From: a virus
Reading direction: 5' to 3' (one strand)
Length of the DNA: 37,433 nucleotides
Virus record (IMG/VR): IMGVR_UViG_3300024262_000109
Coordinates: 1 to 37,433 of that record
Below are positions 6,788 through 22,044 of this stretch, piece by piece (the stretch's first letter is position 1; the number at the start of each line of letters is the position of its first letter). A program made the translations under genes and the position numbers. Below the pieces are notes generated by a model. That model saw nothing but the letters and a program-made list of their open reading frames with translations. It was not told where the DNA came from and did not search any database.

Positions 6788-7103
6788 TACTGAAGAATAT
6801 AGGAATCTAATTTCATTGCTTCAAGAAGCATTAAAGTTTTATGCTAATGCCGATAATTATGAAAAGAATGTTACTTATCCTGAATACAGTGAACTATTTT
6901 CTTATATTGAAATGGATGTTGGAACACAAGCCAGATTCGCATTGAAACAAGTTCAAGATACTCTTGATATGAAACAAAAAATGGAAGAAGATTATGAAAA
7001 ACTTATAGATGAAGCAAAAAAAGCACTTGGAAATGTTGAAGATATTCCAACTGATCTTATGGATACTATGAAAACACTAAAAGATATTAATGATGGAAAT
7101 TAA
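6774..7103 (+). CDS. Hypothetical helical phage protein
   Basis: This 109-residue protein appears almost entirely alpha-helical, with a segment like LLQEALKFYANADNYEKN and later VGTQARFALKQVQDTLDMKQ. The pattern of a helix, a DN-Y motif, then an aspartate/glycine-x-x-ARxAL stretch is one I associate with widespread small phage proteins of unknown function. No catalytic motif is visible. An alternative ATG lies two codons downstream at 6780. The gene overlaps the KTSC gene upstream and the dUTPase gene downstream by 14 bases each, so all three are likely translated in a coupled way within the early nucleotide-metabolism operon. Confidence 0.5.
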   Translation: MKMNNTEEYRNLISLLQEALKFYANADNYEKNVTYPEYSELFSYIEMDVGTQARFALKQVQDTLDMKQKMEEDYEKLIDEAKKALGNVEDIPTDLMDTMKTLKDINDGN

Positions 7104-7578
7104 ATTTAAAAAATTAATACCAGAAGCTAAAACACCGTATAGAAAATATGATGTTGATGCAGGATTTGATTTATTTTGCACATCAATTGAAGAAAAACCA
7201 GAATACATCCAATATAATACAGGAATAGCTGTTGAAATTCCAGAAGGTTATGTTGGGTTAATTTTTCCAAGAAGTTCTGTAACTAAATATGATTTAATGT
7301 TAAAAAACTCAATTGGTGTTATTGATGCCAGTTACAGAGGCGAAATAATGTGTAGATTCTTTGAAACTAAAGAAATTAAAGATTATATTGAAATTGAAAA
7401 TGCTGGTGTTATAAATATGGTACATAATCTTCGTAATGGAAGAAAGGTTTATAAGGTTGGGGAACGTGTTGCACAAATTGTGTTCATGGAAATACCAAAA
7501 ATAACATTAGTCGAAACAGAAGAACTCTCTAGTACTGAACGTGGTGATGGTGGTTTCGGACACACAGGTAAAAAATAA
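7090..7578 (+). CDS. dut: dUTP diphosphatase (trimeric dUTPase)
   Basis: Hydrolyses dUTP to dUMP and pyrophosphate, keeping uracil out of phage DNA and feeding dUMP to thymidylate synthase two genes downstream. All five trimeric dUTPase motifs are present in order: I DAGFDLF (23-29), II PRSSV (60-64), III GVIDASYRGEI (76-86) with the catalytic Asp and the uracil-pocket Tyr, IV GERVAQI (124-130), and V RGDGGFGHTG (151-160), the glycine-rich P-loop-like tail. The length of 162 is only slightly above the usual size, with a small insertion before motif IV. The start is at 7090; a second ATG follows immediately at 7093. It overlaps the preceding gene by 14 bases and lies 23 bases before the next. 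Confidence 0.96.
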   Translation: MMEIKFKKLIPEAKTPYRKYDVDAGFDLFCTSIEEKPEYIQYNTGIAVEIPEGYVGLIFPRSSVTKYDLMLKNSIGVIDASYRGEIMCRFFETKEIKDYIEIENAGVINMVHNLRNGRKVYKVGERVAQIVFMEIPKITLVETEELSSTERGDGGFGHTGKK

Positions 7579-7601
7579 TAATAAGTAAAATAATAAATAT
7601 T

Positions 7602-7805
7602 ATGAAAGGTACAACTGGAAACAGATTAAGAAGAGAAAATGCAAAGAAAATGCTTGAAGCACAACTTAAACGTGGTACAAAACCAGAAAAGGTTGATGGA
7701 AAAACAACACGTAATATGATTCCATTAACTGATGCTAATAGGAAGCGTATTGAACGTGAAATTGAAAATATAAATAATAAGAAAAGTAAAACTACTTTTG
7801 TATAA
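7602..7805 (+). CDS. Small basic hypothetical protein
   Basis: This 67-residue, strongly basic protein (many Lys and Arg) has a predicted N-terminal helix around RLRRENAKKMLEAQLKRG and a C-terminal helix ANRKRIEREIENINNKKS. No known domain was recognised. The charge would suit nucleic-acid or acidic-partner binding, but that is only inference. Its stop codon overlaps the ATG of thymidylate synthase (TAATG at 7803-7807), a classic sign of translational coupling. This supports it as a real gene despite its size. Confidence 0.55.
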   Translation: MKGTTGNRLRRENAKKMLEAQLKRGTKPEKVDGKTTRNMIPLTDANRKRIEREIENINNKKSKTTFV

Positions 7806-8857
7806 TGAAACAATATTTAGATTTATTAGAAAACATCCTTGATAATGGTGTTGAAAAAGAAAGTGGTAGAGCAAATATGCCGAACACTAGAGGTATATCT
7901 CACGGTGTAATCCAAATGGATTTACAAGATGGGTTTCCATTGCTTACAACTAAGAAAATGTATTGGAAAGGTATTGTACACGAACTCCTATGGTTTCTTA
8001 GGGGAGATACTAATATTGCATATCTTGTGAATAATAATGTGAATATCTGGAATGCAGACGCTTATAGATGGTATTTGAAATATAATGAAAATAATAGTCA
8101 TGGGACTCCACCGTTAACGATGGAACAATTTATTAATGAGATAAAAATGGGTGGACACGTAAATCCCCATTTTGTTAATACTGATTATTATCTTGGTGAT
8201 TTAGGTAAAGTTTATGGTTACCAATGGCGTAATCAAAACGGTGTTGATCAAATAAAAGAGGTTTTAGATGGGTTAAAATCAAATCCTTATAGCCGTTATC
8301 ATATTATTGATGGTTGGAATAAGGCAGATTTTAAAGATATGGCACTTCCACCATGTCATTTACTTTATCAGTTTATTGTAAGACCATTAGATACTATTGA
8401 AAGAACAGAATTAGCTTGGAAAATTGGGTTAGAATCTGAATACAGGGAGAATTTACCGAAAATGGTAGAAGAGTGGGATATTTGGTTTGATGAAAGAAAT
8501 GTACCAAAGTTTTATCTTGATTTAAATATGTACCAACGTAGTTGTGATACAATGCTCGGAGTTCCTTTCAACATAGCTTCAATGTCATTATTATTAATGA
8601 TTTTTGCAAAAGCATCTAATATGATAGCTGGTGTTTCAACTTGGATTGGTGGTGATACTCATTTATATATGAATCATATTCCTGCCGTTAATGAACAACT
8701 TGAAAGAGAACCATATGATTTACCTCAAATGGTAATTAATAAAGAACTAAATAATCTTGAAGATATATTGGGATTAACTATCAATGATTTTGAATTACAG
8801 AATTACGAATGTCACTCAACAATCAAAGCAGAATTATTTACTGGATTAAAAAAATAA
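7805..8857 (+). CDS. thyA: Thymidylate synthase (ThyA type)
   Basis: Converts dUMP to dTMP using methylenetetrahydrofolate, the step after dUTPase. Visible family features are the N-terminal RGISHGVIQMDLQDGFPLLTTKK region (30-51), ELLWFLRGDTN (60-70), YGYQWRN (137-143), the catalytic Cys184 in LPPCHLLYQF, YQRSCDTMLGVPFNIAS (243-259) for phosphate and folate contacts, and GDTHLYMNH (283-291). At 350 residues it is longer than the roughly 264 of E. coli ThyA. The extra length sits around residues 90-130 and 195-235, between conserved blocks, and does not look like an intein. It is coupled to the small basic gene upstream through an overlapping TAATG. No FAD-dependent ThyX or dihydrofolate reductase gene is present in the window. 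Confidence 0.97.
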   Translation: MKQYLDLLENILDNGVEKESGRANMPNTRGISHGVIQMDLQDGFPLLTTKKMYWKGIVHELLWFLRGDTNIAYLVNNNVNIWNADAYRWYLKYNENNSHGTPPLTMEQFINEIKMGGHVNPHFVNTDYYLGDLGKVYGYQWRNQNGVDQIKEVLDGLKSNPYSRYHIIDGWNKADFKDMALPPCHLLYQFIVRPLDTIERTELAWKIGLESEYRENLPKMVEEWDIWFDERNVPKFYLDLNMYQRSCDTMLGVPFNIASMSLLLMIFAKASNMIAGVSTWIGGDTHLYMNHIPAVNEQLEREPYDLPQMVINKELNNLEDILGLTINDFELQNYECHSTIKAELFTGLKK

Positions 8858-8864
8858 AATAATC

Positions 8865-9137
8865 ATGGACGAAAGATTAAGAGATGTCAATTTAATTGAC
8901 GAACTAGAAGAAACATTTAAAGATGTAAAAGCACAACTTACTGATGACGAAAAACGGTATGGTGATACTTGGAAAAAACGTGGTCTTGTGTATCATGAAC
9001 AAAGTCAGGAATTACGTTGGTTTTTTAAGATGCAAGATTATATTCAAGATTTTGAAGATCACGGAGTTCCAATTCCTTGGACAAAAGCTCTTGGAGAAAC
9101 ACACATTTGTCTTGTAAGAGAAAAAAAACTTAAGTAA
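8865..9137 (+). CDS. Hypothetical phage protein in nucleotide-metabolism operon
   Basis: This 90-residue protein follows thymidylate synthase by 7 bases. The sequence runs from an acidic helical N-terminus through YGDTWKKRGLVYHEQSQELR to a C-terminal segment GVPIPWTKALGETHICLVRE. The paired conserved-looking motifs GDTW and PIPW, separated by about 40 residues, and a terminal ALxREK-like helix resemble small phage proteins near nucleotide pyrophosphohydrolases, but I cannot name the family. Function is unknown. Operon position is the only hint of a nucleotide-metabolism link. Confidence 0.5.
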   Translation: MDERLRDVNLIDELEETFKDVKAQLTDDEKRYGDTWKKRGLVYHEQSQELRWFFKMQDYIQDFEDHGVPIPWTKALGETHICLVREKKLK

Positions 9138-9142
9138 ATTGA

Positions 9143-9385
9143 ATGTTAATATTATACATAGTAATAATATTATTAATTATAATAATAATTTTACTTGCAG
9201 GTGCATTATATTTTTTAATTAAAAAAACTGTATATATATCTGATAAGGAAAAAGAATTCATAATATTCGTTATTGATATTTTTGCTGAGTATGGTGATGA
9301 TTTAGGTGTTCAATCTAAAGAACAACACAATAAACTTGTTGGAGAACTGGAAAAAATAAAAACTAAATATATAAAGAATGAATAA
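9143..9385 (+). CDS. Small single-pass membrane protein
   Basis: This 80-residue protein has one strong N-terminal hydrophobic segment (about residues 2-27, mostly Ile and Leu), followed by a Lys-containing stop-transfer and a soluble helical tail with SDKEKEFIIFVIDIFAEYGD. The segment is long and lacks a cleavage motif, so a membrane anchor is more likely than a secretion signal. The tail is most simply placed on the cytoplasmic side by the positive-inside rule, since Lys residues follow the segment. The function is unknown. It starts 5 bases after the previous gene and overlaps the next by 8 bases. A role such as superinfection exclusion is possible but has no specific support. Confidence 0.55.
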   Translation: MLILYIVIILLIIIIILLAGALYFLIKKTVYISDKEKEFIIFVIDIFAEYGDDLGVQSKEQHNKLVGELEKIKTKYIKNE

Positions 9386-9641
9386 ATTAGAGATAATTAA
9401 TGAATATTTAGAGGGTTTAGATATATCTTCATTATCAGCAGATGGGTTTGATGATGCGATAATTGGAATACATGGTGAAAAAATTGTATACTCTACAACC
9501 AAATGTATTGAAATTTTAATTACTAGAGATAAAATGAATAAAGAAGATGCTGAAGAATATTTTGATTTTAATGTTGAAGGTGCTTATGTAGGAGAAAACA
9601 CACCAATATTTGTTAATGATTCTATGTTCTATGGATTATAA
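9378..9641 (+). CDS. Conserved-type small phage hypothetical protein
   Basis: This 87-residue acidic protein has the pattern DGFDDAIIGIHGEKIVYSTT, then an Asp-x-x-Asn/Glu-helix and EDAEEYFDFNVEGAYVGENT. I associate this GFDDAhIGh...EAxEYhxxNhxxAYhGExTP pattern with a widespread small phage and bacterial protein of unknown function. It is the last gene of the early plus-strand operon. It overlaps the preceding membrane-protein gene by 8 bases and is followed at once by a hairpin terminator shared with the convergent neck operon. Confidence 0.6.
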   Translation: MNKLEIINEYLEGLDISSLSADGFDDAIIGIHGEKIVYSTTKCIEILITRDKMNKEDAEEYFDFNVEGAYVGENTPIFVNDSMFYGL

Positions 9642-9670
9642 TAACGGACATTTATCGGACATGTCCGTTA
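9642..9670. terminator. Bidirectional terminator hairpin between convergent operons
   Basis: A perfect 9-bp stem, TAACGGACA (9642-9650) pairing with TGTCCGTTA (9662-9670), encloses an 11-base loop. It is followed on the plus strand by TATTTATTATTT. It starts one base after the stop of the 87-aa gene and ends 6 bases before the stop of the convergent gp14-like gene, so it can serve both. The loop side also contains a 12-base perfect palindrome, CGGACATGTCCG (9656-9667), allowing an alternative fold. Confidence 0.7.
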
Positions 9671-9676
9671 TATTTA

Positions 9677-10231
9677 TTATTTAGTGCCTTTTGTTTCACT
9701 TAAGAATGGAACAACATCTTCTTTCACAGGAACACCAGTTATTTGTTTCCAATAATTTTTAAACCCACCAATTGTCTTACTAGTTGTATCAGTAACACTA
9801 TTAACACTTTCAACTTCATAATATCGGTTTTTCTCACCACTTAAATTATATTCGATAATATCACCTCTATCAATCTCAATTTGTTTATCTTCTAATTCCT
9901 TAAGATAAACACCAAAACTAATAATTCCAGTATCATCACGTGTAATACCACCTTGATTTCCACCATAATAGTCTTGTTTACCATCTTCAATAGTTATCAT
10001 AACACTTATAGTAATTGGGGACATATATTTTTTATCCTTACTTTTTGCCTGTCCATATAATGCATGGACTTTAGTTTCAATAATATTAATTTTATGAATA
10101 ATAACCGTTTGTGCGTTATCAGTTTGTAGAAAATTCCTACCATACATAACATCCAAATCAAATGAATTATCATTCATAAATAACCCCATTCTATTGTCTT
10201 CAATATCAGTTAATTGTTTTTTCTTTTTCAT
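9677..10231 (-). CDS. Putative neck protein, gp14-like
   Basis: This is a 184-residue protein. The core runs DLDVMYGRNFLQTDNAQTVI, then an inserted strand set, SFGVYLKELEDKQIEIDRGD and IIEYNLSGEKNRYYEVESVN. The order (an early D-h-h-hGcDh motif, a central strand-rich segment, then a GDhIhh...hYEVxxV motif) matches that of the T4 gp14 family of neck proteins and related head-tail connector proteins, which join the portal-bound neck to the tail. It is the last gene in the leftward operon beginning with the gene at 12408, directly downstream of the gp13-like candidate and one small gene. This is the T4 order. The similarity is by eye and remote. Confidence 0.5.
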   Translation of the reverse strand: MKKKKQLTDIEDNRMGLFMNDNSFDLDVMYGRNFLQTDNAQTVIIHKINIIETKVHALYGQAKSKDKKYMSPITISVMITIEDGKQDYYGGNQGGITRDDTGIISFGVYLKELEDKQIEIDRGDIIEYNLSGEKNRYYEVESVNSVTDTTSKTIGGFKNYWKQITGVPVKEDVVPFLSETKGTK

Positions 10232-13285: not shown

Positions 13286-14770
13286 ATGAATTTTAAACCA
13301 ACGGCAGAACAAGATCGAATATTCTTATTTACGAAAAAAAGACCAGAAAATATTTTAATTAAAGCATATGCTGGTACTGGTAAAACATCAACTATTGTTG
13401 AAGCAGTAAAATTACTCCAAAAAGATAAATCGATAACATTTCTAGCATTTAATAGACATATTAAAGAAGAATTAAAGACAAAATTACCTGAACATGTTAG
13501 ATGTTATACAACTTATGGTATTGGTGTGGGAGCAATTAAAAGAAAATATGGTGATAGTATTAAATTCGATGAATTCAAAGCAGATAAGATCATATTAAAA
13601 AAATCTAAATCTTGGGAACTAGAAGATGAACTTAAATCTGAAGAAGAAATTTCAGTATATTTGAATAATATAAAGAAACTTTGTAATTTATGTAGATTAA
13701 CACTTACAGTAAAGCCAGAATATATTCCTTATGTTTCAGAAAGATATGACATACCATTAAATAAACCCAGAGATATTAAGCGTGTTCTTAAAATCTTAAA
13801 TTTTATGACTACAGATAGAAAAACTTATGATTATACTGATATGGTTTTTTTACCTGCTATTGATAATGGAATATGGTTCTTTCCACAAGATTACGTTTTT
13901 GTTGATGAAGTACAGGATTTGAATCGTTGTCAAATTAAAATAATTGAAAAGGTTCTTAAACGTAACAGAAAAACAAAAAAACTCGAAGGTAGATTAATTT
14001 CTGTTGGTGATTTTTTTCAAGGAATTTATGGTTTTAATGCTGCTGATGAAAAATCATTCCAATGGTTTGAGAAATTCCCAAATACTAAGGTCTTATCATT
14101 ATCAGTATCATTCAGATGTTCACAAAATGTAATAAAAAAGGCACAAGAAATTGTGCCAGATATTAAAGCGTTACCAAATGCCCCAGAGGGTCTTGTAAGA
14201 GTGGGTAATGTTCTTGAAGAAGCAGAGAGTGGTGATTTTGTTTTATGTAGAACAACTATGCCGTTAGTGAAACTATTTTTTGAATACTTAATTCAAGGTA
14301 AAAAAGCGATTATTAAGGGGAGTGATATTGGTGTTCATCTTATTGAATTAATTGGAAAAATTAATAATGTTGAAAAATTAATTACTTTCTGGGAAGGGGA
14401 ATTATCAAAATTTAGAAATGATTTAAAAAAAGAAGGTGTTTTAAATCCTAATGAACATAGTGGGTATACTACTCTTGAAGATAAAGTAACAACATTATTA
14501 TTTTTAGCTAGAATTGCTGACAGTATTGTTGATCTAAAATTTAAAATTAAAACAATTTTCACTGATGAGATACAGGGTATTGTGTTAAGCACAATACATA
14601 AAATCAAAGGTTTAGAAGCAAACAGGGTCTTTATAGTTAGACCAGATTTATTACCAATGCAAACTGCAAAACCTTGGCAATATGTTCAAGAAAAGAACTT
14701 AGAGTATGTTGCGTATACTAGAGCCAAACATGAGTTAATATTTGATAATAATTGGACAGATGAATCATGA
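13286..14770 (+). CDS. UvrD/PcrA-like SF1A DNA helicase
   Basis: ATP-dependent DNA strand separation for phage replication or recombination, acting in the cytoplasm. Motifs in order: an N-terminal Q-motif-like TAEQDRIF (6-13), Walker A AGTGKTS (29-35), motif Ia LAFNRHIKEEL (53-63), Walker B VDEVQDLN (206-213) with DExQD, motif III GDFFQGIYGF (241-250), motif IV SFRCS (275-279), motif V STIHKIKGLE (435-444), and motif VI YVAYTRAK (474-481). At 494 residues it is shorter than UvrD or PcrA (about 700), with reduced accessory subdomains. That is closer in size to the phage Dda type, although its motifs look UvrD-like. Its stop overlaps the next start as ATGA. Confidence 0.92.
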   Translation: MNFKPTAEQDRIFLFTKKRPENILIKAYAGTGKTSTIVEAVKLLQKDKSITFLAFNRHIKEELKTKLPEHVRCYTTYGIGVGAIKRKYGDSIKFDEFKADKIILKKSKSWELEDELKSEEEISVYLNNIKKLCNLCRLTLTVKPEYIPYVSERYDIPLNKPRDIKRVLKILNFMTTDRKTYDYTDMVFLPAIDNGIWFFPQDYVFVDEVQDLNRCQIKIIEKVLKRNRKTKKLEGRLISVGDFFQGIYGFNAADEKSFQWFEKFPNTKVLSLSVSFRCSQNVIKKAQEIVPDIKALPNAPEGLVRVGNVLEEAESGDFVLCRTTMPLVKLFFEYLIQGKKAIIKGSDIGVHLIELIGKINNVEKLITFWEGELSKFRNDLKKEGVLNPNEHSGYTTLEDKVTTLLFLARIADSIVDLKFKIKTIFTDEIQGIVLSTIHKIKGLEANRVFIVRPDLLPMQTAKPWQYVQEKNLEYVAYTRAKHELIFDNNWTDES

Positions 14771-15847: not shown

Positions 15848-16378
15848 TTAATTATTTTTTGGTGTTTTTGTTTCATATACAGATTTAGCCCAATTAATTT
15901 CGAATTTAATATCGGGTTTATCTGAATTATATGAGTAAATTTTTGTTGGATTTACACCTATCGAAACAATAAAACCATCAGGAAATTGATCAACCAACAC
16001 ATTTACCGAATCAATTAAAATTTTAGTACCATATAACCATGTATTTGTAGGTTTACCATTAAAAATCGATTTACTCACCAAATATAAATCATAATGATAA
16101 TATTTTTTATTCTTCTTACTACCAGTACTACCTATCTCATTAACCCAATTTTTTTTAACAATTGTCGAATTAGTTTGAAATTTTTTATCGTAAAATGCTT
16201 CTGAATCAATTTCTTCAATTGTAACATATCCACTAACAGAAATTATATTATTTTCATAATGTAATATGAAAGTCCCATAATCCTGATGAATCTTTCTATG
16301 CTCATTATAGATACTATTTTGACTAACTATATTAGTTACAATGAGTAATGAAATAAAAAATAATAATAATTTTTTCAT
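15848..16378 (-). CDS. Secreted/periplasmic hypothetical protein
   Basis: This 176-residue protein has a clear signal peptide: a KK positive start, a hydrophobic core FFISLLIVTNIV (7-18), and a cleavage region around VSQ/N at residues 18-21. It has no lipobox Cys. The remainder looks strand-rich (Tyr, Ile, Ser, Lys), with NNIISVSGYVTIEEIDSEAF and KIYSYNSDKPDIKFEINWAK, and has no known domain. It has a late-type promoter motif (16404-16414) and precedes the membrane coiled-coil gene in the same direction. That would suit an envelope-modifying or lysis-related pair, but this is speculative. It may instead act on the host envelope. Confidence 0.5.
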   Translation of the reverse strand: MKKLLLFFISLLIVTNIVSQNSIYNEHRKIHQDYGTFILHYENNIISVSGYVTIEEIDSEAFYDKKFQTNSTIVKKNWVNEIGSTGSKKNKKYYHYDLYLVSKSIFNGKPTNTWLYGTKILIDSVNVLVDQFPDGFIVSIGVNPTKIYSYNSDKPDIKFEINWAKSVYETKTPKNN

Positions 16379-16403: not shown

Positions 16404-16414
16404 TAATAAATACT
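16404..16414 (-). promoter_or_regulatory. Late-type promoter motif for the secreted/membrane gene pair
   Basis: The minus strand reads AGTATTTATTA, 25 bases before the ATG at 16378. It separates this pair from the Mom-HEG gene upstream, whose stop is at 16436. Confidence 0.6.
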
Positions 16415-16435: not shown

Positions 16436-17905
16436 TTATTTAGGTAAATATGTCCATAAAAAATCGTTAACTATTTTATTTTTCACACACCACCTTGAAA
16501 TGGTTGATTGGTTTACATTTTCAATTATTGAAGCAATTTTTGTTGATTCAAATATTTTAATAATCTCATTATTGTTTGAATCTATCTTATATACTTTTTT
16601 ACATAAAATATCTTTTTGTTGTTTGGATAATCCTTTTAGTTTTTTTGTTTCACTTATTTTTGTTTTAGTTTTTTCACTTCTAGTTTTTCCTAACCAAAAT
16701 TTTGTTGAAGAAACACTCAAATCTTTCTTTTCTTCTTCGGTTTTTAATTTACCATATTTTTTTGCTTCCTCACTACCAGCAACAGCAATTCGTTTATTAA
16801 TCCAATTTTCTGTTTGTTTAATACCTAAATGTGATTTAGACATCTTCTCAATAGTATGTGTGTTAGGAATTGCATTTTTACCACCACTTTCAATATTATA
16901 ACCAAAATCTTTTTGATCAGATTTAAATTCTTTAATATATTTAATTTCTTTTTCGTTAAGTTCATTAATATTCTGCGCAGTATCAATTATTGAAAATTCA
17001 AAATTTTTAAAACCATATTTTTTAAACGAATTATTTAAATATTTATTACTATAACCCTTTTCATATTCACGAATTCTATCACGAAATGAACGTATTGTTT
17101 GACCAACATAATGTTTATTATTTATTCTATTTTTTATTAAATATATGATTCCTGAAATTTCATAATTTCTTTTTTTATATGGTAGGATAATATGTTTAAT
17201 AGCATTTAAATATTTTCTATTTTCAGTTTTATTCCCAATAAAATAGAAATATCTTTCTTTTCTAAATTGAGGAACAAATATAGCATTTGGATAATATTTT
17301 AAGACTTCTTCTTTTCTCATGCTTCCAATTTTGTTTCTAACCCAACGAGAAAATCTTAATTTACCATCAATAATAACCCCAAATCTTGTTGCCATTTTGT
17401 TACCATGATAATTCCCACTCATTAAACCAACATAATACCAATTTAATGACTGATATATAGTTCCAATCTCACCAGCAGCTTTATCTACCGTTGCTGTAAT
17501 TATTTTATATTCAGTATTATTTTTTAACCATTTACACACTCTACTAATAAAATATGATGCTGAATTTTTGGGTGTCCACCATAAACAAACTCCTCTACTT
17601 AATAATAACATTTTATTTTCAAAACCATATTTTTTCCAAGCACCAGTATTTTCGGAATACTCATTACCAAAAACCAATACACCACCTAAATATTCTTTAT
17701 TGTTGATTATAAAGTATAATCCAAAAAAATATTTATTTGCAAATGGCATTGAATGTAACCATTCATATTCTAAAACTATTTTAGTTGCAGTTTTTTTATC
17801 GATTTTTCTGATTATTGAATCTTTTAAATTTATTTGATATTTATCAAATTCAATTGTTTCAGATTTCTCTTTCTCTTTTCTAATTTTATATTGATATGCT
17901 TCCAT
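16436..17905 (-). CDS. Mom-like DNA-modification acyltransferase fused to GIY-YIG homing endonuclease
   Basis: This is a single continuous 489-residue frame with two modules. Residues 1-246 match Mom-family GNAT proteins (phage Mu Mom makes a carbamoylmethyl adenine): YEWLHSMPF (47-55), GGVLVFG (74-80), LLLSRGVCLWW (100-110), PKNSASYFISRVCKWL (112-127), EIGTIYQSLNWYYVG (146-160), RKERYFYF (215-222), and the family-typical C-terminal PYKKR (242-246). Immediately after comes GIIY (252-255) and YVG (266-268), then R275/R277, E318/E320 and N337 in GYNIESGG, the GIY-YIG nuclease core. Residues about 346-425 look like NUMOD3 DNA-binding repeats and about 436-487 like a NUMOD1/IENR1 helix-turn-helix. 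It has a host-like promoter rather than a late-type motif. Each module is recognisable; the joint function is unknown. Confidence 0.88.
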   Translation of the reverse strand: MEAYQYKIRKEKEKSETIEFDKYQINLKDSIIRKIDKKTATKIVLEYEWLHSMPFANKYFFGLYFIINNKEYLGGVLVFGNEYSENTGAWKKYGFENKMLLLSRGVCLWWTPKNSASYFISRVCKWLKNNTEYKIITATVDKAAGEIGTIYQSLNWYYVGLMSGNYHGNKMATRFGVIIDGKLRFSRWVRNKIGSMRKEEVLKYYPNAIFVPQFRKERYFYFIGNKTENRKYLNAIKHIILPYKKRNYEISGIIYLIKNRINNKHYVGQTIRSFRDRIREYEKGYSNKYLNNSFKKYGFKNFEFSIIDTAQNINELNEKEIKYIKEFKSDQKDFGYNIESGGKNAIPNTHTIEKMSKSHLGIKQTENWINKRIAVAGSEEAKKYGKLKTEEEKKDLSVSSTKFWLGKTRSEKTKTKISETKKLKGLSKQQKDILCKKVYKIDSNNNEIIKIFESTKIASIIENVNQSTISRWCVKNKIVNDFLWTYLPK

Positions 17906-17927: not shown

Positions 17928-17958
17928 CAAATATAAAAAAAAGGGTTGGAAAACCCAA
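17928..17958 (-). promoter_or_regulatory. Bacteroidota-type promoter of the Mom-HEG gene, interleaved with the capsid terminator
   Basis: On the minus strand, TTG (17958-17956) and TATATTTG (17935-17928) are separated by 20 bases, matching TTTG / TAnnTTTG spacing. The start codon at 17905 lies 22 bases downstream. The spacer is the hairpin and T-tract that terminate the capsid transcript, so the two signals share DNA. Confidence 0.6.
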
Positions 17959-17968
17959 CCCTTTTTTT
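17935..17968 (-). terminator. Terminator of the protease-scaffold-capsid operon
   Basis: A 7-bp GC-rich stem (GGGTTGG, 17943-17949, with CCAACCC, 17955-17961) has a 5-base loop and is flanked by A8 and T7 tracts, a strong intrinsic terminator. It lies 18 bases beyond the capsid stop. The symmetrical tracts would also let it work on the plus strand. Confidence 0.85.
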
Positions 17969-17985
17969 ATTTATCTATTTATTGA

Positions 17986-19674
17986 TTACTGTAAGTCACC
18001 AATTCCGAAGGTCTGAAGACCATCACAGTAAATTCTACCATAATAACGGTTTAATACCATTTTCTTTGCGTAACGAGTCATGATACCACGAATCGGTGTA
18101 AAATCAAATGGATTATACATTACAGGAGTTAATTGCATTGGCACGTATGGTGCATATATGTAACCGGTCTCAAGAATACTAGTACCTTTATGACCAATAA
18201 GTACTGTGTTAGCAGGAGAATAAGGGTCACGATATACTAAGTAACGTCCACTTAAAGTACCGATTTTCTCAATACCCATATTGTATTTATCCTGCTCTGG
18301 AGCAGCATTAGATACGTGGAAATATTCAAGGTCATCAAATACAGCAGAAACTTCTGGAGAAACAACTACCCATGATGCACCACCACGAAGTGTTGCTTTG
18401 TGGATTTGTGCTGAAATCTGGTTAATTTTAGTAACTAACGTCTGATTCCAGTCTTTTTGAACACCGTAATACTGGTTAGTACTACCTTGTTTTCTAAGAC
18501 CATTATAGTCCCAACGAGCAGTCCAAGCAGCACCTCTACGAAGGTCACGAAGAATTTCACGGTCAATTTCAGCAGCCATTTGTTCTGACAATAAAGCAGT
18601 TAATTCAGCTTCAGCATCGATATTATGGAAAGCAGAAACGTCCTGTGCTAATTCAGGTGTCCACATAGCACGCATTTTACGTGTTTCAACAGAAACAGTA
18701 ACTTGGTCTAATTGGAAAGTAACTTCAGCCATTCTTGAATCTTCTTCAAGGTCTGAATATGTTCTGTAAGTAGCTGTGAACGTAGGAGTACTAGCACCAC
18801 TAAGTGCTTGATATCCATTAGTACCAGCATATGTTAAATCAACAAGAAGTATAAGTACGCCTGTTGGACTAACAATTGCTTGTCCGTATTTTTGAACTTT
18901 TACGTTAAAAGGAATAGATTCACCAGCAGTAATACCTTCACTTGCGTAAGGTGCTGGAGCAGTTAAATCAATATTTGCAACAACTTTTAAACCAGCAAGG
19001 AAAGACTCAGTGTCCATAGGAACACCAGTAGGTCCTACCAATTTACCATCACCAGTTGAAGTAATACCACTAACATTTAATGTTACATATTTATCAGTTC
19101 CAATAGTGAAAGCAACAGCAGATGAACTACCTGTTACAGTTGTAATGTCACCTTTTGAACGATCAAATAATGATGTTCCTTCTTCATCATATTCAGTCGC
19201 ATAAAATGCATCATATAATGAACGAGATTCGAATTGAGTTCTTGATGACTCAACTTTATCAGCAGCATTTCCATAAGCTCCATCAGGAGATGTGTGTAAT
19301 GCACCCGGAGTTGTTGTAGTAGTAGCACTTTCTACTCTTACACTTGTCTTAGGGTTGATATAATACAACTTACCAATAGGTAGGTTAAGTGCCTGTACAG
19401 ACACGATGTCGTTTGCTAACAATTTAGCAAATACTCTTCGGATTACAGGAAAAGCAACTGTTTCAAATTGACCACTATTTGATGAATCTGATGATTCATT
19501 AATCATGTGTGACAACTGATTCTCGAATAACTGAGCACAGTTTTCTTTTACATTACCTTCTAATCCATCTAACAAACCAATCTTTTCCCAACGATTAGTT
19601 GTTATTTCTCTTTGTTCTCGCAAATTTTTCAAACCAATGTTTCCAACATCTGCGCTTTCGGTTAAAAATCCCAT
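17986..19674 (-). CDS. Major capsid protein, gp23-like
   Basis: This 562-residue protein builds the prohead shell. It parallels T4 gp23 throughout: the N-terminal LFENQ (49-53; T4 IFENQ), FPVIRRVFAKLLANDIVSVQ (75-94; T4 VRRAIPNLIAFDICGVQ), MRAMWTPELAQDVSAFHNID and AEAELTALLSEQMAAEIDRE in the HK97 spine-helix region, and YIYAPYVPMQLTPVMYNPFD near the C-terminus. A candidate maturation site is I58-N59-E60|S61, at a position close to the T4 cleavage after residue 65 and fitting the (L/I)-x-E rule. The gene follows the scaffold gene by 21 bases and has no promoter of its own visible. Its codons look visibly less AT-extreme than those of neighbours, consistent with high expression, though I did not compute this. 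Confidence 0.96.
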   Translation of the reverse strand: MGFLTESADVGNIGLKNLREQREITTNRWEKIGLLDGLEGNVKENCAQLFENQLSHMINESSDSSNSGQFETVAFPVIRRVFAKLLANDIVSVQALNLPIGKLYYINPKTSVRVESATTTTTPGALHTSPDGAYGNAADKVESSRTQFESRSLYDAFYATEYDEEGTSLFDRSKGDITTVTGSSSAVAFTIGTDKYVTLNVSGITSTGDGKLVGPTGVPMDTESFLAGLKVVANIDLTAPAPYASEGITAGESIPFNVKVQKYGQAIVSPTGVLILLVDLTYAGTNGYQALSGASTPTFTATYRTYSDLEEDSRMAEVTFQLDQVTVSVETRKMRAMWTPELAQDVSAFHNIDAEAELTALLSEQMAAEIDREILRDLRRGAAWTARWDYNGLRKQGSTNQYYGVQKDWNQTLVTKINQISAQIHKATLRGGASWVVVSPEVSAVFDDLEYFHVSNAAPEQDKYNMGIEKIGTLSGRYLVYRDPYSPANTVLIGHKGTSILETGYIYAPYVPMQLTPVMYNPFDFTPIRGIMTRYAKKMVLNRYYGRIYCDGLQTFGIGDLQ

Positions 19675-21342: not shown

Positions 21343-22044
21343 TTATAAAATAAATCTATTCAAAGCACGTGTTATTTTACTATCATCTTCCTTAAGATAA
21401 ATACCATTTTTCTTTACATAATTTTCTCCAAAATTACCAGTTTCCATTTTTTCTGGAAAGAGGTAAGCACCGGGCGTACTTGGTGATGCAACTAAATCAA
21501 AACCAATAAGTTCGAAATCATCTTGAACTATGTTTTCACCATTAATATCATCAAGTGTTCCAACACCACGACTTGAAATTCCTAACTTAATTTTGTTTTG
21601 TAAATAAAGAACAATTTTATCCCCAATGACTGAAACAATACCCAATTTAATATAGCCCGGTGAGACAATTAATTTTAATTGACCATATAAAATATTTTCT
21701 TGTTCATTCTTACCCCACCACATTTTAGTAATCATGTGTGAAATATTTTGTAGTGAAATTATACTCGAATCAGGATGATCAGCTTCCGATACAGCACTAT
21801 TTGAATTCACTAATTCTTGATATATATCTACTTGTGGGACTAATATTTCTTTAGGATAGATACGACCATTTTTGTTTTTTACACCCCATTTTTGTAGGAC
21901 ACAATTAACTAAAACAGGTTCATTAGGTTTTAATTCAAAATTCTCATTTAATATGTCTTTATTGATTTCAGAGTTAATAAACCCAGCATCATGCTCTATT
22001 AAAATTCCAAATCCTGATTCACCCTTTTGTAATATCTTGCTCAT
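21343..22044 (-). CDS. Prohead maturation protease, gp21-like
   Basis: This 233-residue serine protease of the T4 gp21 type digests the prohead core and trims the capsid protein. Diagnostic segments are NKNGRIYPKEIL (57-68), the catalytic His90 in SEADHP, SLQNISHMITKMWW (97-110), GQLKLIVSP (121-129), and the catalytic Ser157/158 in LGISSRGVG (154-162). FELIGFDLVASPSTPGAYLF (177-196) completes the family fold. Positions are consistent with the His and Ser of the gp21/U9 peptidases. It is followed by the scaffold gene after 132 bases that hold a separate late motif. Its own late-type motif is at 22060-22070. Confidence 0.93.
   Translation of the reverse strand: MSKILQKGESGFGILIEHDAGFINSEINKDILNENFELKPNEPVLVNCVLQKWGVKNKNGRIYPKEILVPQVDIYQELVNSNSAVSEADHPDSSIISLQNISHMITKMWWGKNEQENILYGQLKLIVSPGYIKLGIVSVIGDKIVLYLQNKIKLGISSRGVGTLDDINGENIVQDDFELIGFDLVASPSTPGAYLFPEKMETGNFGENYVKKNGIYLKEDDSKITRALNRFIL

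Follow-up and report, generated by a model that had tools for sequence, protein, structure and literature searches.

The window analysed here, i.e., the whole of an IMG/VR contig of 37,433 bases, contains a minus-strand ORF (16436..17905, 489 aa, no internal stops) in which two modules are joined in one frame, a Mom acyltransferase domain at the N-terminus and a GIY-YIG homing endonuclease at the C-terminus, and both the modifying and the cutting domain are conserved within this single ORF. The gene is best explained, with a probability of roughly 0.75, as a free-standing homing endonuclease to which Mom is attached as an accessory, probably an active one; cleavage, homing, and the activity and benefit of Mom are what we infer. 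The fusion, its two conserved active sites, the purifying selection on it, a mobile hotspot with empty sites, the swapping of partners and the association with a single site are established. The ORF is made up as follows:

17168..17905, minus strand: Mom acyltransferase (GNAT-fold) domain, residues 1-246 (PF25680, phrog_1384, Foldseek, conserved residues)
16436..17167, minus strand: residues 247-489 and the stop codon, GIY-YIG homing endonuclease including a DNA-binding region at its C-terminus (TIGR01453, phrog_314, 1ln0)
16913..17152, minus strand: GIY-YIG catalytic core, residues 252-331 (PF01541 and residues invariant in 15 fusions)

The initial annotation had assigned residues 1-246, up to PYKKR, to the Mom family, and the profiles agree with it. 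Pfam PF25680 (Mom) matched residues 31-232 (E 1.5e-23, 84 bits, the curated cut-off being 27.1 bits), and phrog_1384 (Mom) of PHROGs matched residues 17-249. When the AlphaFold model of the ORF, which is of moderate quality (pLDDT 70, pTM 0.43), was searched with Foldseek, the crystal structure of Mu Mom, 8bv8, ranked first among PDB entries for the N-terminal half (E 2.1e-7), with I-TevI among the significant matches of the nuclease. The two Mom proteins share the fold and the equivalents of the catalytic Ser124 and of R111, D149, Y159 and K223, which showed no variation in an alignment of 15 sequences: S117 of the ORF is aligned to Mu S124, the residue mutated in the inactive crystal structure 8bv8, and R104, D141, Y151 and K216 are likewise invariant. 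The present protein differs from Mu Mom, to which it is ~21% identical, in its fused nuclease and in the replacement of KHY by YEW/YEY. The latter motif is found throughout the fused subfamily and in one solo Mom (L092), whereas KHY, which is not known to be essential, is found in Mu and the classical stand-alone Moms; the replacement implies that substrate or chemistry may differ. Judging from the conserved residues, the fused domain probably functions as a DNA-adenine acyltransferase.

The nuclease core had been proposed to start within six residues of the end of Mom, and PF01541 (GIY-YIG) indeed covers residues 252-331 (E 1.2e-8). NCBIfam TIGR01453 (grpIintron_endo) matched residues 253-481 (8.8e-25), phrog_314 (homing endonuclease) residues 252-479 (6.7e-32), and I-TevI (1ln0) was matched both by sequence (2.5e-5) and by fold. 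No catalytic residue is lost in the alignment, G252/Y255, Y266/G268, R277, E320 and N337 being invariant across 15 fusions. The two NUMOD parts proposed downstream fared less well, as NUMOD3 is weak in the ORF (E 0.76) and NUMOD1 reaches significance only in relatives, e.g., L012. The GIY-YIG core and the overall nuclease architecture are shared with I-TevI and the TIGR01453 group I intron endonucleases; unlike these enzymes, the Mom-GIY gene lies outside any intron, with zero matches in an Rfam search for group I introns over the whole window. The insert is placed between genes, and no split host gene surrounds the ORF. An endonuclease encoded by a group I intron or an intein was dropped as a candidate on these two grounds.

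That two complete modules are fused in frame is borne out by the profiles, each half having matched its own, and by the invariant active-site residues. The junction reads PYKKR followed directly by NYEISGIIY, and it occurs at the identical position and in the identical frame in independent contigs at 50-75% identity. When the Mom half was used for a scan, 11 loci were recovered at 58-80% identity, and 11/11 run in frame into a GIY-YIG nuclease; later scans raised the total to 18 Mom-GIY ORFs on 17 contigs, a count that takes in a tandem pair on L002 and one Bacteroidales MAG contig, and all of them have both active sites. Purifying selection acts on the Mom halves (dN/dS ~0.07-0.30) as on the GIY halves (~0.10-0.35). 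A product of frameshift, misassembly or chance is next to inconceivable here: nothing was found in its favor, and against it stand the same architecture in independent contigs from many metagenomes and the selection on both halves. Misassembly or a frameshift at the junction was discarded, since the in-frame fusion recurs in independent contigs. No named phage with a Mom-GIY fusion was found in the phage collection at 80% coverage, and the genome collection gave a single MAG contig (L207), with a GNAT-GIY gene followed by a Mom-GIY gene.

The position of the gene is described by the following features of its surroundings:

17986..19674, minus strand: gene of the major capsid protein (MCP), the neighbour that is conserved and in which the homing target probably lies (matched by phrog_138, major head protein, at 1.7e-67)
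17943..17961, minus strand: terminator hairpin GGGTTGG..CCAACCC between MCP and element (from the hairpin types of occupied and empty sites)
17928..17935, minus strand: TATATTTG, promoter-like -7 element (TAnnTTTG, Bacteroidota type; layout repeated in relatives)
16406..16414, minus strand: AGTATTTAT motif upstream of the right-flank gene, kept in empty sites
15848..16378, minus strand: right-flank gene, which directly follows MCP in empty-site relatives

A survey of 80 MCP loci revealed a hotspot at the 3′ end of MCP. The Mom-GIY gene is located there wherever the contig includes MCP, sometimes with another hotspot element between MCP and the fusion (L005, L141 and L207) and with the opposite orientation in L012. 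Many relatives are empty at this site, including one with an MCP 91% identical to that of the window (L052), where a terminator separates MCP from the right-flank gene known from the window. The AGTATTTAT motif is retained at the empty sites, which indicates that the insert ends before it. On the MCP side, a TTGG/TTGC-type hairpin is found in most occupied sites and other hairpins in most empty ones, and a hairpin immediately followed by TAnnTTTG is usual at occupied sites (many of the other Mom-GIY copies, though not every one, are preceded by it) and rare at empty ones, so that both terminator and promoter appear to be part of the element. Presence of the element is not linked to the MCP protein tree, on which the Mom-GIY label makes 10 changes in 11 rows against a shuffled mean of 10.3.

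None of the empty MCP-flank sites of close relatives has a Mom gene, from which it follows that Mom-GIY was inserted as one entire ORF. This bears on the initial proposal that a homing gene had inserted where a resident Mom gene ends, at its stop codon, which would make the fusion incidental. The coincidence of the junction with the usual Mom C-terminus, PYPKR, speaks for such a landing; against it are the empty sites without Mom, the retention of the frame in 18 fusions, and the fusion of Mom at its other end to an HNH domain at the same locus. A resident Mom was accordingly discarded for its absence at empty sites, and we regard an incidental fusion as highly improbable. The homing part of that proposal has good support from the hotspot after MCP, the empty sites, a presence unlinked to the MCP tree and the probable target with its putative immunity allele (see below).

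The occupants of the hotspot are several: besides Mom-GIY, they comprise GNAT-GIY, REase-(Mom-like GNAT) and lone GIY-YIG genes, and HNH-Mom in distant phages. Mom partners with both nuclease types, GIY-A (~240 aa) and GIY-B (~325 aa), and the Mom-GIY nucleases are polyphyletic, the supported branches forcing at least 3 changes. The GNAT-GIY nuclease of L093 branches within the group of the window ORF's nuclease, and is itself a chimera with ~90% identity to L002a in its middle part only. In the distant phages (MCP 52-55% identical) the order is reversed, an HNH/endonuclease VII-like domain preceding the same Mom subfamily after MCP; the HNH assignment is based on phrog_1035 and the motif, the structure model being unusable (pLDDT 60), and the catalytic Ser is invariant in 8 HNH-Mom proteins. 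In the tree, the fused Moms and the solo ones of L092 and L165 are separated from the classical stand-alone Moms (100/99). The L072 protein, in which a weak REase-fold match is followed by a Mom-like GNAT (Pfam Mom 1.6e-5, just under the curated cut-off), represents a separate gene type in relatives, the window ORF's nuclease not being of the REase fold.

Several single loci may be recorded alongside. L092, where the MCP site is empty, has an unfused Mom (8736-9680, minus strand; 45% identity) that belongs to the fused subfamily and lies near the helicase gene. A GIY-A remnant in L127 (5208-5609; C-terminal part, 71% identity to that of the window) stands just before an intact Mom-GIY-B, which suggests the replacement of one element by another. 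In L105, GNAT and GIY-YIG are overlapping ORFs (7075-7887 and 7829-8536), either a split gene or a sequencing frameshift. Homing endonucleases are common in the neighbourhood of ribonucleotide reductase genes, and phage f2b1 (L295) has a stand-alone Mom-like gene (MN940411.1, 44889-45752) between the genes for the alpha and beta subunits of that enzyme.

The candidate homing site was sought within MCP itself, where the codon alignment was scanned for bases that divide genomes carrying a fused GIY-A from empty ones. The scan pointed to one place:

18142..18177, minus strand: probable nuclease target, the MCP codons for ILETGYIYAPYV (carrier versus empty base scan)

At window position 18166, the synonymous third position of the codon for Thr in ILE-T-GYIYAPY, carriers have ACC instead of ACA/ACT. 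The base C was present in 27/27 fused GIY-A carriers versus 1/20 empty genomes (permutations 0/200); the runner-up, 9 nt away, stood at 19/27 versus 2/20, and outside this neighbourhood the difference was at most 0.48, the permutation maximum (n=200) being 0.64. Independent pairs on the MCP protein tree gave 11:0 for 18166 (p 0.001, the site having been chosen on the same data). The few held-out genomes, compared post hoc, both fit, one with GNAT-GIY having ACC (L006, which brings the fused GIY-A carriers with C to 28/28) and one with no GIY element having ACT (L092); further scanning of MCP for such genomes brought up hardly any new contigs. The bases from 18166 to the element showed at most a weak association with carriage, which speaks against simple hitch-hiking. 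The lone GIY-A copies of L009, L080 and L101, which have intact motifs and neither Mom nor GNAT, lack the C and sit with the MCP allele presumed to be sensitive, unlike all fused copies. This MCP site is probably the homing target, with a putative silent immunity allele, as far as comparison of genomes can tell.

The C allele was found regardless of the partner, in 10/10 carriers with Mom and 16/16 with GNAT, and since the GNAT carriers have it just as the Mom carriers do, protection of the homing site would not seem to require Mom. A mark in MCP specific to Mom, e.g., GAG before the Thr codon, was not significant (103/200 permutations), and Mom with GIY-B showed no clear MCP signature among the 4 genomes available; the genomes were too few for signature scans of GIY-B and REase-GNAT.

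Taken as a free-standing homing endonuclease, the element would be an intronless gene directly behind MCP in a large T4-like phage that probably infects Bacteroidota. The most likely target of its GIY-YIG nuclease would be MCP in co-infecting phages without the element, with a cut near the ETGYIY codons, at a putative position ~180 bp before the MCP stop. Repair of the break from the element-bearing genome would then copy the element together with flanking MCP sequence, and resident genomes would be immune via the silent change of ACA/ACT to ACC. Mom would travel as an accessory, most plausibly one that shields the carrier DNA from restriction or nuclease damage; the threat countered may be restriction by the host or cutting of lower specificity.

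Mom could also be tied to the nuclease more closely, as a one-chain weapon resembling restriction-modification (R-M), where the mark set by Mom identifies DNA as the phage's own and the nuclease attacks host or rival DNA that has no such mark, the other idea of the initial annotation. It gains from the pairing of Mom with at least 2 unrelated nucleases in both domain orders, from the recurrence of a Mom-like GNAT with a REase-fold nuclease, from the retained Mom catalytic residues, and from having been put forward in print for Mom-REase fusions (PMC7824862). Such a weapon is nevertheless unlikely: all fused GIY-A carriers, the GNAT partner included, have a putative immunity allele at the level of sequence, the nuclease also occurs without Mom, the MCP signature specific to Mom was not found, and a PADLOC search for defence systems gave zero matches. 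A hybrid form, in which the Mom mark blocks the fused nuclease, so that a selfish homing gene serves at the same time as an R-M-like weapon against the DNA of hosts and rival phages, with the nuclease (GIY-YIG, HNH, REase) exchangeable and Mom or a Mom-like GNAT retained, strikes us as similarly doubtful.

Mom might alternatively have lost its modification activity, its fold being co-opted as a DNA-binding or regulatory part of the homing endonuclease. Related GNAT domains do stand alongside many phage homing endonucleases (phrog_3339/559), and one nuclease takes GNAT or Mom interchangeably; but the Mom half is the more strongly constrained (dN/dS ~0.1), and Ser117 with the R, D, Y and K residues is invariant in 15 Mom-GIY proteins, as is the Ser in 8 HNH-Mom proteins, which makes co-option improbable. 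The recurrence of Mom with unrelated nucleases, together with its conserved catalytic residues, favors a functional link.

Other genes show interruptions in relatives. In L006 (4847-7348, minus strand), a Hint/LAGLIDADG insert that resembles an intein (Pfam Hom_end_hint 7e-14) breaks a UvrD-like helicase gene near Walker A, and split helicase matches were also found in L010, L058, L086 and L100; the window's helicase (13286-14770) has no interruption. In L007 (624-2495) and L140 (1-1698), ~1.2 kb separates the two parts of the prohead protease gene, with the break at one and the same residue (~92), which suggests an intein or intron there; the window has this gene intact (21343-22044).

The nearest precedent among Mom proteins is that of Iyer et al. 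2021, who described jumbo-phage Mom domains fused to REase-fold nucleases and proposed an R-M-like role (PMC7824862). These fusions likewise combine a Mom-family domain and an endonuclease in one chain in large phages, whereas the present nuclease is a C-terminal GIY-YIG and relatives have an N-terminal HNH; a REase-GNAT protein of the type reported there shares the hotspot in relatives (L072, weak REase match). The available part of the paper describes neither the hotspot nor the empty sites nor the target-site marker (PMC7824862). Among homing genes, the closest parallel is given by the free-standing Seg endonucleases of T4, also GIY-YIG, intergenic beside a conserved structural gene and patchy in presence, with segD adjoining MCP gene 23 (PMC2988022). 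In contrast to Seg, the present protein has an additional N-terminal Mom or GNAT domain, and the element has its own terminator/promoter cassette and a probable target ~180 bp from the MCP stop. The initial statement that no fusion of the pair was known holds for GIY-YIG in the collections searched, and Mom fused to REase-fold nucleases had been published (PMC7824862). Mom with GIY-YIG, Mom with HNH, a partner-swapping MCP hotspot and the silent marker were absent from the literature and collections searched, a search that was incomplete. The Mom-nuclease fusion as a concept is already known, and its GIY-YIG and HNH versions appear to be new.

Homing nucleases and DNA hypermodification, usually treated apart, are joined here in one mobile gene, and at a single capsid-gene hotspot Mom or a related GNAT teams with nucleases of two or three unrelated folds. 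Carriage of the element goes together with one silent base of the capsid gene, which offers a concrete, testable candidate homing site. Purified protein and short DNA substrates would suffice to probe the target, self-immunity and the role of Mom, with no need for a cultured phage.
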